Shown: positions 59,566 to 63,022 of the stretch, piece by piece
How the letters are laid out: the number at the start of each line of letters is the position of its first letter
Position numbering within the stretch: position 1 is the stretch's first letter
DNA from: Halolamina pelagica
GTDB taxonomy: Archaea > Halobacteriota > Halobacteria > Halobacteriales > Haloferacaceae
Assembly (NCBI RefSeq): GCF_900115675.1
Contig: NZ_FOXI01000001.1
Location: forward strand, 310,001 to 374,000
Length of the DNA: 64,000 bases
Reading direction: 5' to 3'
Translations under genes and position numbers: made by a program
The notes under the pieces: model-generated
The model's input: only the letters and a program-made list of their open reading frames with translations
What the model was told of the DNA's origin: nothing
Databases searched by the model: none

Positions 59566-59741
59566 GGGGACGTGGCCAAGCCCGGGATGGCGACTGACTC
59601 CAGAGGCCACGCGCCCGGTGACGAACTCCAGACTGATATACCGAGTCGGCGACTGATCATCGCCGGCGACGACGACCCTCTGGAGGACCGAGGCGCACCG
59701 GAGATATCAGTCGATCGGGGGTTCAAATCCCTCCGTCCCCA
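59566..59741 (+). tRNA. tRNA-Trp (CCA) with 102-base intron
   Basis: Acceptor GGGGACG pairs with CGTCCCC (59734-59740), discriminator A at 59741. D arm GCCA/TGGC, anticodon stem ACTGA (59593-59597) with TCAGT (59707-59711), anticodon CCA at 59600-59602, and T arm GGGGG-TTCAAAT-CCCTC. The intron lies after position 37 (59604-59705). The 3' CCA is not encoded. A large intron in tRNA-Trp is a known haloarchaeal trait; it is cut by the splicing endonuclease at a bulge-helix-bulge. Confidence 0.93.
59604..59705 (+). ncRNA. Box C/D guide RNA inside the tRNA-Trp intron
   Basis: Known haloarchaeal tRNA-Trp introns act as box C/D RNAs guiding 2'-O-methylation of C34 and U39 of the same tRNA. Here a box-C-like GTGACGA is at 59618-59624, a CTGA at 59633-59636, and a D-like CCGA at 59688-59691. 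TCTGGAG (59679-59685) is complementary to the anticodon loop CTCCAGA, and the base five upstream of CCGA pairs with C34, as the rule requires. CGACTGAT (59650-59657) is complementary to the ATCAGTCG around U39, but no clear D' box follows it. Confidence 0.75.
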
Positions 59742-59965
59742 TTTCAGATTTAATGGTTTCGAAAGAAAGGTCGTTAGCGACTTCTGCAGCCGCTAAAAGG
59801 TACCCTTACTTCTAGCTCCCTCGAGACTCCTGACTGACGCCGCCACCGGTCGGAACACCGGTCGGAACCCGTACAACCTGCTCCCCTCCCGCGATCACGT
59901 CCCGGCCGGAACCGTTCGGAACCGGCCGGCCGACACTCATGGCGCTGGTGTCGGAAGGGGGAGGT

Positions 59966-60658
59966 ATGGCTCCCACCACCGACGCGCAGTCGCTCACGAT
60001 CCCCGAACTCCCGTCGGTCGAGGCGGGCATCACGCTGCTCGAGGCCGACGGCGACCCCCGGCTGCCGCTGCAGACGCTGCTGGTCGACCACCTCCTGCTG
60101 GCTGGCGGGCGGGGCGTCTGGGTCGGGACCGGCCGGTACTGCAGCACCGACACGCTCGCGCAGGTCGCGCCCGATCGGCGCGTGCTCGAGCGCGTCGACG
60201 TGGCCCGCGGATTCACGCCCTACCAGCACGCGGCGCTGCTCGACGGCCTCGCGGCCCACGTCGACGAGGAGACCGCCGTGATCGCCCTGCCCGAGATCGA
60301 CGCCCAGTACCGCGGCGACGACCTCCAGGGCAACGACGGGCGGACGATGCTCGTCCGAGCGCTGGCGCGGGTGGCCGCCGTCGCCCGCGAGAAGGAGATC
60401 CCGGTCCTCTGTACGCGCTCCCGGGCCGACGAGTTCAGCGAACCGCTCGCGGCTGCGTCGTCGTCGACGCTGACGGTGCGGGACACGCCGATGGGCCCGC
60501 GGTTCGTCGGCGAGGTGTTCGAGACGCTGGGCTATGAGCTCGACGGCGGCTGGGTCCAGACGACGATCGCCTTCTGGGAGCGGGTGCTCGAGGCCCGGCA
60601 GCCGCTCCACGACACCGCGACGATCTCCGGGGAGGTGTTCGCCCGTGGGACGGTCTAA
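59966..60658 (+). CDS. Degenerate RecA/RadA-like protein of the PolB2 cassette
   Basis: 230 aa. GGAGGT lies directly before the ATG at 59966; an ATG at 59939 is an alternative. 'LPLQTLLVDHLLLAGGRGVWVGTG' sits where the RecA-fold P-loop would be but lacks the GxxxxGK[ST] Walker A. 'VARGFTPYQHAALLDGLAAHV', 'ALPEIDAQYRGDDLQGNDG' and 'IPVLCTRSR' follow the RadA core order. So it is probably an ATPase-dead RadA/ImuA-like partner. It overlaps the small helical gene by 14 bases and is followed by PolB2, an arrangement seen in other archaea. The 224 bases before it hold a hairpin (59774-59796) and no gene. Confidence 0.72.
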   Translation: MAPTTDAQSLTIPELPSVEAGITLLEADGDPRLPLQTLLVDHLLLAGGRGVWVGTGRYCSTDTLAQVAPDRRVLERVDVARGFTPYQHAALLDGLAAHVDEETAVIALPEIDAQYRGDDLQGNDGRTMLVRALARVAAVAREKEIPVLCTRSRADEFSEPLAAASSSTLTVRDTPMGPRFVGEVFETLGYELDGGWVQTTIAFWERVLEARQPLHDTATISGEVFARGTV

Positions 60659-60896
60659 CCCCACCCACCGCGACAGCCTGCGGCGCCTGGAGGAGCGCTG
60701 GGGTGACTACCGGCGGGCGCTCCGCCGGCGCGATCAGGCCCACTTCGACCGGCTCTGGGAGCACGCCGCCGCCTACGCCGACGCGGCGGGCTACCAGAAC
60801 GCCGAGCGCCCCCTCGATCTCGCGCTCGTGTCGATCGTGCTCGCCCAGGAGCGCCGAATCGCCGCGCTCGAAGCGGAGTTGGAGGCGCGACCGTGA
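60645..60896 (+). CDS. Small helical protein of the PolB2 cassette
   Basis: 83 aa from the GTG at 60645. All-helical and charged: 'DSLRRLEERWGDYRRALRRRDQAHFDRLWEHAAAYADAAGYQN' and a C-terminal heptad helix 'LALVSIVLAQERRIAALEAELE'. It is embedded between the RadA-like gene (14-base overlap) and PolB2 (4-base overlap), so translation is tightly coupled. A bridging or adaptor role in a three-protein complex is inferred. Confidence 0.75.
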   Translation: MGRSNPTHRDSLRRLEERWGDYRRALRRRDQAHFDRLWEHAAAYADAAGYQNAERPLDLALVSIVLAQERRIAALEAELEARP

Positions 60897-63022
60897 CCTA
60901 CTGCGTCGACTTCCCCGAGCCGGGGACGGCCGTCGAGTGGTCGCTGACCGAGTCGGGCGCCGAGCGCGAGCCCGTCCCCTACCGCCCGCGGTTCTACGTC
61001 CGCGCGACCGGGGACGGCTCGCTCGCGGAGGTCGCCGAGGCGGTCCGCCCGCATCCCGCGGTGACGGCGGTCGAGACCGAACGCCACCGCCCCGGCTGGC
61101 GCCACGACCCGACGCCGATGCTCGCGGTCGAGGTGACGACGCCCGACGCCGTCACGCGGCTGGCGTCGACGATCACGAGCGCCGGGCGTCCCGGCGAGTA
61201 CCGCTGTTTCAACGTCGATCTCTCCCGGCAGTTCCGCTACTGCGTCGAGACCGACGTGGATCCGACACCCGCGCGACCGCCGCGCGTGCTGCGCCTCGAC
61301 GCGCCGCCGATCGCCGAGAGCGGACTCGAGTCGGTGACGGCGACGACGGCGGCGGACGGGACACACTGTTTCGACGGCGATCCCGCCACGATCGCCCGCG
61401 GGGTCGAGGCACTGATCCGTGAGACGGAGCCGGACGTGTTGCGGCTCTCCTCGGCCCGGCTCGTCCCGGCACTGTTCGACGCCGTCGACGGGCCGCTCCG
61501 GCTGGGTCGCGAGCCGGGGTACACCCAGCTCGCGGCCGCGAGCAGCTACGAGAGCTACGGGCAGGTCGGCCACTCGCCGGCGCGGTACGCGGTGCCCGGC
61601 CGGGTCATCGTCGACGCCGCCAACTCCTTCTTCCTGCGGGAGACCTCCATCGAGGGGATCCTGGACCTGGTCGAACGCTCCCACAAGCCGCTGCAGGAGG
61701 CGGCGTGGGCCTCGATCGGCAACGTGTTCACCGCCATTCAGATCCGCGAAGCGCTGGCCCGCGACGTGCTCGTGCCGTGGCGATCGTGGCGGGCCGAGCA
61801 GTTCAAGACCGCCAGCACGCTCGCGGCGGCCGATCGCGGCGGCTTCACGTTCTCCCCGGACGTGGGCGTCCACGAGGACGTCCACGAGCTCGACTTCTCG
61901 AGCCTCTATCCGAACATCATGTGTACCCGGAACGTCTCGCCCGAGACCGTCTGCTGTGACTGCCACCCCGACCGCGAGGACGTGCCCGGGCTGGGGTACG
62001 GCATCTGCCCCGAGCCGGGCTACCTCCCCGACGTACTGCAGCCCCTGATCGACGACCGCGACGAGTTCAAGCGCCAACTCAGCGCCGGCGAGGGCGACAC
62101 CGAGGCGCTCGAAGGCGCGGCGTCGGCGATCAAGTGGATCCTCGTCTCCTGTTTCGGCTACCAGGGGTTCTCGAACGCGAAGTTCGGCCGGATCGAGTGC
62201 CACGAGGCGATCAACGCGTTCGCCCGGGAGATCCTCCTCGACGCGAAGGCGACGCTCGAGCGCCACGGCTGGCGCGTCGTCCACGGGATCGTCGACTCGC
62301 TGTGGGTGACGCCGATGCCCGACCGCGAGCAGACCGACCTCGACGCCGTCGCCGCCGAGATCACGGACGACGCCGGGATCAGGCTGGAGTACGAGGCGGC
62401 CTACGACTGGATCGCGTTCTGCCCGCGCCGGAACGACGACGCCGGCGCGCTCACGCGCTACTTCGGGAAGCGGGCCGGCGAGCCCGTCGACGAGACGGTG
62501 AGCTACAAGCGCCGCGGGATCGAGGCCCGACAGCGGTCGACGCCGCCGTTCATCGTCGACGCTCAACTGGCGCTGATCCGCGAGTTCGGCCGGACCCGCT
62601 CGCCGGCGGCAGTCTGTGAGCGCCTCCGGACGTTCGTCGAGCGGCTGCAGGCCGGCGACGTGGACCCGTCGCGGTTGGCGATCACCAACCGCGTCTCGAA
62701 GCGCCTCGAGGAGTACACCCAGTCGACGACCAACGTCGCCGCGCTGGAGCGGGCGGCCGACCGCGGCTTGGAGAAACAGCCCGGCCAGAACGTCGCGTAC
62801 GTCGTCGTCGACGACGGGAAGAAGGGTCGGGCGCGGGTCGCACTCCCGTCCGAGGAGCCGGCGACGTACGACGCCGACTACTACCGGGATCGGCTCTGCC
62901 GGGCCGCGGCGTCGGTGCTGGCGCCGGCCGGCGTCCGCCGCGAGGGGATCGAGGCGCAGTTGGCCGACCGGGTGGACGGCTCGCTCTCGGCGTTCGTCAC
63001 TGGGAAGGGTTCGGACGAGTGA
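60893..63022 (+). CDS. polB2: PolB2 family B DNA polymerase with altered motifs B and C
   Basis: 709 aa from a GTG. The N-terminal third has no recognisable ExoI DxE motif (VLRLDAPPIAE is in its place), so proofreading is probably absent. Motif A is canonical (DFSSLYPNIM, Asp334). Motif B is Lys414-WILVSCFGY, replacing the usual KxxxNSxYG Asn and Tyr. Motif C is HGIVDSLWV: the first Asp of the DTD pair is Ile466 and only Asp468 remains. This pattern defines archaeal PolB2, long thought inactive; crenarchaeal Dpo2 has since been linked to damage-induced synthesis. It should act as a specialised, error-prone or translesion polymerase. Confidence 0.88.
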   Translation: MTYCVDFPEPGTAVEWSLTESGAEREPVPYRPRFYVRATGDGSLAEVAEAVRPHPAVTAVETERHRPGWRHDPTPMLAVEVTTPDAVTRLASTITSAGRPGEYRCFNVDLSRQFRYCVETDVDPTPARPPRVLRLDAPPIAESGLESVTATTAADGTHCFDGDPATIARGVEALIRETEPDVLRLSSARLVPALFDAVDGPLRLGREPGYTQLAAASSYESYGQVGHSPARYAVPGRVIVDAANSFFLRETSIEGILDLVERSHKPLQEAAWASIGNVFTAIQIREALARDVLVPWRSWRAEQFKTASTLAAADRGGFTFSPDVGVHEDVHELDFSSLYPNIMCTRNVSPETVCCDCHPDREDVPGLGYGICPEPGYLPDVLQPLIDDRDEFKRQLSAGEGDTEALEGAASAIKWILVSCFGYQGFSNAKFGRIECHEAINAFAREILLDAKATLERHGWRVVHGIVDSLWVTPMPDREQTDLDAVAAEITDDAGIRLEYEAAYDWIAFCPRRNDDAGALTRYFGKRAGEPVDETVSYKRRGIEARQRSTPPFIVDAQLALIREFGRTRSPAAVCERLRTFVERLQAGDVDPSRLAITNRVSKRLEEYTQSTTNVAALERAADRGLEKQPGQNVAYVVVDDGKKGRARVALPSEEPATYDADYYRDRLCRAAASVLAPAGVRREGIEAQLADRVDGSLSAFVTGKGSDE

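Follow-up and report, generated by a model that had tools for sequence, protein, structure and literature searches.

The closest known counterpart of the locus analysed here is the archaeal PolB2 mutasome, a system for which Makarova et al. 2014 (PMC4104785) gave the description and Timinskas et al. 2025 (PMC11791011) the models. In the published models PPB2 is predicted to form a trimer, the MGRT arm docks between PolB2 and iRadA, and the result is a 1:1:3 heteropentamer that exists as models only; the PolB2 segment preceding a D(K/R) motif acts as a mimic of the Rad51 oligomerisation motif, to which iRadA binds (PMC11791011). In Sulfolobus islandicus, no polymerase other than Dpo2 is damage-inducible, and targeted mutagenesis stems from it (PMC7390963); Orc1-2 binds an ANTTTC motif on its own promoter that is also found on several damage-response promoters (PMC9738581). 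Orc genes near PolB2 were noted earlier (PMC4104785, PMC11791011 and PMC1906834). In Halobacterium, the UV-B-induced genes radA1, top6B, vng17 and vng280 have TTTCACTTTCA in common (PMC2556686).

The iRadA-PPB2-PolB2 genes of Halolamina pelagica

The window, i.e. the whole 64,000-nt stretch of H. pelagica DNA that was analysed (contig NZ_FOXI01000001.1, positions 310,001 to 374,000), contains the gene triad of the PolB2 mutasome:

59966-60658, + strand: iRadA, 230 aa, ATG at 59966; RadA/Rad51 fold without N-terminal domain and without Walker A
60645-60896, + strand: PPB2 (arCOG07300-type), 83 aa, GTG start; helical, N-terminal arm MGRSNPT
60893-63022, + strand: PolB2, family B DNA polymerase, 709 aa, GTG start; exonuclease motifs absent

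Gene content and order, the 83-aa helical partner with its MGR[TS] arm, the Walker-less RadA fold, the D(K/R) motif and the replacement of the first motif C Asp by Ile (IID in S. islandicus) are all as in the PolB2 mutasome, and no structural difference was found with respect to the accessible parts of its descriptions. Judged by its sequence, the locus is a haloarchaeal member of the published iRadA-PPB2-PolB2 mutasome. The haloarchaeal version has a conserved PIP-like PolB2 tail and a CGGAA promoter element; neither was found for the published mutasome in the accessible portions of PMC4104785 and PMC11791011. The CGGAA element is the new part of the finding, while the cassette adds one more case of the PolB2 mutasome. 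Both E. coli Pol V (UmuC-UmuD'2-RecA) and ImuA-ImuB-DnaE2 similarly combine an error-prone polymerase with a RecA/Rad51-fold partner and small subunits, but the polymerase families are unrelated; the architecture is alike and there is no common membership. The parallel with ImuA-ImuB-DnaE2 drawn in the original prediction therefore holds as an analogy of organisation, not as membership, this polymerase being of family B, and the published parallel is Pol V.

Reading the DNA bore out the predicted overlaps of 14 nt (iRadA/PPB2) and 4 nt (PPB2/PolB2), the first of which is also seen in many other haloarchaeal genera. The claim that the three proteins must be made together was slightly too strong, since in plasmid lineages PolB2 lies 0.7-4.9 kb away from iRadA-PPB2 and has its own promoter element. 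A second in-frame ATG for iRadA, at 59939, is likewise open; the ATG at 59966 is favoured because the element at 59907 sits 59 nt upstream of it, a spacing as in relatives. The nearest named relatives of PolB2 are those of Halolamina rubra (93% identity) and H. pelagica (90%), and relatives with 45-82% identity were found in most of 60 genomes of the family. Pairwise comparison with four Halolamina orthologs gave dN/dS values of 0.17-0.31 for each of iRadA, PPB2 and PolB2, so that all three are under purifying selection and none is decaying. A tRNA gene interrupted by a long intron, probably that of tRNA-Trp (anticodon by eye), lies just upstream of the cassette both here (59566-59741, + strand) and in H. 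rubra; it was found by Rfam RF00005 and missed by ARAGORN.

PolB2 and its predicted partners

PolB2 scored 952.5 bits against NCBIfam NF004418 (cut-off 692), an entry that does not carry the PolB2 name, the PolB2 group being assigned from motif C and the gene triad. It also matched Pfam PF00136 (E 8.6e-22), and its profile found archaeal family B polymerase structures in the PDB (E 3e-69). Pfam gave no exonuclease-domain match at E≤1, in agreement with the predicted loss of the exonuclease motif, and an alignment of 43 haloarchaeal PolB2s confirmed the predicted motif numbering (motif A Asp334, motif C Ile466 and Asp468, motif B Asn and Tyr lost). The features of the polymerase are:

61802..61813, + strand: residues 304-307, FKTA, candidate Rad51-type FxxA docking segment for iRadA, by analogy with PMC11791011
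61832..61837, + strand: D314-R315, D(K/R) motif, predicted contact of the PPB2 arm; DRGG invariant, role taken from PMC11791011
61892..61894, + strand: motif A metal-binding Asp334, kept in 43/43 haloarchaeal PolB2s
62132..62158, + strand: motif B KWILVSCFG (Asn to Val418, Tyr to Phe421), with Val418 and Phe421 in 43/43
62282..62299, + strand: motif C HGIVDS (Asp to Ile466; Asp468 kept), identical in 43/43
62975..62995, + strand: C-terminal DGSLSAF, PIP-like tail, matching in position QTGLGQW of the own-genome PolB3

Motif B reads KWILV[SA]CFGYQG across the 43 sequences, with two single exceptions (I416V and C420S). In motif C the first Asp is replaced and the second kept within HxxxD, the form given for PolB2 in PMC8764526. 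The altered catalytic motifs of the original prediction are thus real, but HGIVDS being identical in all 43 sequences, the motif C change is a signature of PolB2 and not decay. Nor do the alterations imply a dead polymerase, since Sulfolobus PolB2 (Dpo2) shares the motif C change and is an efficient polymerase, active as an extender in lesion bypass (PMC8764526). This result, together with the invariance of the metal-binding D334 and D468 and of the palm core among the haloarchaeal PolB2s, makes it unlikely that PolB2 is inactive and the complex structural or regulatory, for example at stalled forks or origins, even though the first motif C Asp, the motif B Asn/Tyr and the exonuclease motifs are all missing, Orc-like genes are linked to the cassette, and older literature regarded PolB2 as inactivated and proposed a role in repair or origin regulation (PMC4104785). 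Downstream of motif A (window 61955-62008), C355, C357 and C372 are invariant and H358 nearly so, a possible metal site.

The pattern [LIVM]xx[FYW] lies close to the PolB2 C-terminus in 42/43 sequences, and LxxF/Y was present in the tail of 37/43, compared with 9.2 in shuffles (which ignore relatedness). This conservation, and a location comparable to QTGLGQW of the own-genome PolB3, suggest that the tail is a degenerate PIP box. QTTIAFW in iRadA was weighed as a further PIP box but is not claimed, its spacing misfitting QxxLxxFF.

The iRadA sequence alone gave weak RadB/Rad51 matches. Its profile matched RadA/Rad51 structures in the PDB with E 1.3e-11, and its predicted structure (mean pLDDT 80.7) matched RadA/Dmc1 in Foldseek (E 3e-10, TM ~0.6). 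No Walker A was found in iRadA across the aligned orthologs. The predicted RadA-like partner without a Walker A was therefore upheld, and the protein combines a RadA fold with the loss of both the N-terminal domain and the ATPase site, as in the mutasome. PPB2 showed no significant match in Pfam or NCBIfam. Its predicted structure (pLDDT 86) has a non-helical arm (residues 1-7) followed by four helices, as expected of the helical protein proposed earlier; the arm is kept in 31 orthologs, and with a length near 90 aa, a helical body and an arm of the MGRT type (MGRSNPT) PPB2 has the traits of its mutasome namesake. The role of the 83-residue protein, and the function of the cassette in haloarchaea, had been called poorly described, and a 1:1:1 complex had been put forward for structure prediction; in PMC11791011, PPB2 is already described with a modelled role in the complex, and the models give 1:1:3. 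The PolB2 segment corresponding to the one modelled there is EQFKTASTLAAADRGG (302-317), in which F/Y304, K305, L310 and DRGG are conserved among the 43 PolB2s. Within residues 304-307, F/Y304 is present in 41/43, K305 in 43/43 and A or M at 307 in 38/43; residue 307 is Ala in 11 and Met in 27 of the 43, so that about one quarter have a strict FxxA. Overall, the first interpretation was partly supported: the identity of the cassette stood, and the readings of its motifs and novelty were corrected.

A tandem CGGAA element and its distribution

A promoter element at 59851-59943, missed in the original prediction, precedes the cassette in two copies:

59851..59868, + strand: upstream tandem copy 1, CGGAAC-N6-CGGAAC, kept in Halolamina orthologs while the flanking DNA is not
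59905..59943, + strand: copy 2, CGGAACCGTTCGGAAC (59907-59922) then a CTCAT box, 59 nt before ATG 59966

In the upstream alignment of the Halolamina orthologs the CGGAAC repeats are conserved amid poorly conserved DNA; one ortholog of five (L047) is without them. Across genera the element takes the form CGGAA-N3-5-CGGAA followed by CTTAT, ~60 nt upstream of the start codon of iRadA; in the window cassette the TATA-like box, CTCAT, is a poor one. The strict repeat was present on the coding strand in 17 of 30 non-redundant iRadA promoters, compared with 2 on the other strand and an average of 0.09 in dinucleotide shuffles; non-redundancy was set by an 80% identity filter, and these enrichment counts correct for shared ancestry only that far.

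A sequence-only model, R1, was built from 20 iRadA promoters, with no PolB2, Orc-like or exonuclease promoters in the training set, and run over the 60 family genomes. It gave 44 hits at E≤0.001, which by our own classification comprise 29 iRadA (some decayed), 4 PolB2, 6 Orc1/Cdc6-like and 1 DEDD exonuclease gene (40/44 preceding these four gene types) and 4 others (G007:C6:94575, G042:C7:299344, G018:C5:464472 and G056:C11:43683), at which no recognisable gene was found. In the own genome only two sites reached E<0.05, those of the window cassette (copy 2, E 2.0e-4, its sequence being among the 20 used to build R1) and of a second cassette on contig C13. Of 23 non-redundant Orc1/Cdc6-like promoters, 16 contained the strict repeat, compared with 0.03 in shuffles; an inverted TTCCG usually adjoins the TATA-like box there. 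In split plasmid cassettes, where insertions part PPB2 from PolB2, a separate element stood directly before PolB2 in 8/9 cases, compared with 0/27 intact cassettes. A DEDD exonuclease gene (PF13482) had its own element in G049, a genome in which PolB2 was not found. The Orc-like promoters, the PolB2 genes of split cassettes and the exonuclease gene provide three independent checks that support a function for the element. The bare pattern CGGAACN{3,7}CGGAAC was rejected as a definition of the element, being non-specific: it matched at 19 places in the own genome (1 in the control), one of the 19 preceding a tRNA-like sequence, and most of the matches fall within or next to unrelated reading frames. 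The accessible literature, which lacked many subscription papers, gave no earlier account of the CGGAA element.

Further copies and associated genes were located as follows:

L035 7150-10456, own contig C13: second complete iRadA-PPB2-PolB2 cassette, plasmid type, PolB2 56% identical to that of the window
L038 5136-5598 (-), L039 492-1130 (+), L040 952-1414 (+), L106 (-), L154 3980-4457 (+): stand-alone DEDD-type exonuclease genes (PF13482)

Upstream of the C13 cassette is an Orc-like gene (4376), and a second Orc gene lies on its downstream side. Own contig C34 has decayed remnants of one more PolB2 copy (L036 4240-4551), and many family genomes have such fragments. The stand-alone exonuclease genes directly follow PPB2 in several plasmid cassettes or have their own CGGAA element; their products are possible in-trans proofreaders for the exonuclease-less PolB2. 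A phage search gave distant matches only, the best in Leptospira phages (31% identity). The view that the cassette serves plasmid maintenance, chiefly as cargo of plasmids or mobile elements, with the chromosomal copy a captured relic, draws on 89 plasmid records matching over at least 80% of PolB2, on the several copies and many decayed fragments per genome, and on the 102-kb contig bearing the second copy here; it is nevertheless quite improbable, given that the chromosomal copy is kept in several Halolamina genomes, with the dN/dS values above and a conserved promoter element.

The element resembles the Halobacterium UV-B motif in being a short tandem repeat, the latter lying ~50 nt before the starts of damage-induced genes (PMC2556686), but the sequences differ, and the window cassette has CGGAA repeats instead. 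Exact TTTCACTTTCA is present in the own radA promoter (L145, about 812) and replaces CGGAA in the Orc-like promoter of one relative (L058), and the PolB2 cassettes of L023 and L043 have similar repeats, that of L043 within one mismatch.

An Orc1/Cdc6-like protein as candidate regulator

The Orc1/Cdc6-like AAA+ gene that has the element encodes 334 aa with AAA and Cdc6-lid domains. In the own genome the chromosomal-type gene (C11:79773) has CGGAACTGATCGGAAC at -60, which matches the copy at -59 of the window iRadA, and the element was absent before the Orc paralogs on C30, C31 and C22 (3/3 examined; the C24 paralog was left out). As in the Sulfolobus Dpo2/Orc1-2 regulon, an exonuclease-less PolB2 is found and one element is common to an Orc1/Cdc6-like gene and the target genes. 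In contrast, the element is a CGGAA tandem repeat and not ANTTTC, and the likeness is one of element sharing. Since the same element precedes its own gene, the Orc-like protein most likely binds it and, by analogy with Orc1-2, would control both itself and the mutasome, switching the latter on after DNA damage; the co-occurrence points to a dedicated damage-response switch. That the element is instead an origin recognition box or plasmid-copy control site is unlikely: its GGAAAC core resembles haloarchaeal ORB elements (PMC3528665 prints TAACAGCGGAAACAGTGGGG...) and an Orc-like gene also has it, but it is oriented, sits together with a TATA-like box ~60 nt ahead of start codons, precedes PolB2 where the operon is split, shows no G-string or inverted ORB pair and is absent before three own Orc paralogs.

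The best explanation, which we hold to be probable, is that the PolB2 mutasome extends past lesions and is induced through the CGGAA promoter by the Orc-like protein. A damage-tolerance role, as first proposed, would be the best reading of the cassette, by analogy with Sulfolobus. PolB2, its two metal-binding Asp kept, would extend DNA at low fidelity beyond lesions or mismatched ends, with a mutagenic outcome. The dead RadA fold of iRadA would dock on it around FKTA (304-307), where a RadA protomer would bind its neighbour, a PPB2 trimer would put its MGRS arm between PolB2, iRadA and DNA, and the SLSAF tail may serve as a degenerate PIP box that links the complex to PCNA. Transcription would start from the tandem-CGGAA promoter, ~60 nt before iRadA, and binding of the Orc-like protein to the element would turn the mutasome on after damage, in the manner of Orc1-2 in Sulfolobus. 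Several points count against this explanation: Halobacterium can do without polB2 (PMC1906834) and deletion of the gene is reported to be possible in Haloferax (PMC7776575, unpublished there), the element is unlike both the Sulfolobus ANTTTC box and the Halobacterium UV motif, the window cassette has a poor TATA-like box, and strict FxxA is confined to a minority of PolB2s. The PolB2 locus of Halobacterium NRC-1 pNRC200 (L113 4571-9149) looks broken, with a truncated PPB2, exonuclease pieces and an IS200/IS605 insertion; no iRadA was found within its 16-kb stretch, and its PolB2 retains an element of its own at -60. Deletion tests in that strain may therefore say little about the full complex.

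Taken further, the data could describe an SOS-like haloarchaeal regulon in which the Orc1/Cdc6-like protein autoregulates through tandem CGGAA and induces the PolB2 mutasome and the stand-alone DEDD exonuclease in response to DNA damage, a proposal whose chances we regard as evenly balanced. If true, the regulon would be the euryarchaeal equivalent of Orc1-2/Dpo2 control in Sulfolobus, acting through another DNA element. How mutagenic damage tolerance is switched on outside the Sulfolobales is poorly known. The common promoter element offers a candidate regulator, with its putative binding site, for immediate testing in tractable haloarchaea, and confirmation would mean that damage regulators of the Orc family occur in both major branches of the archaea.
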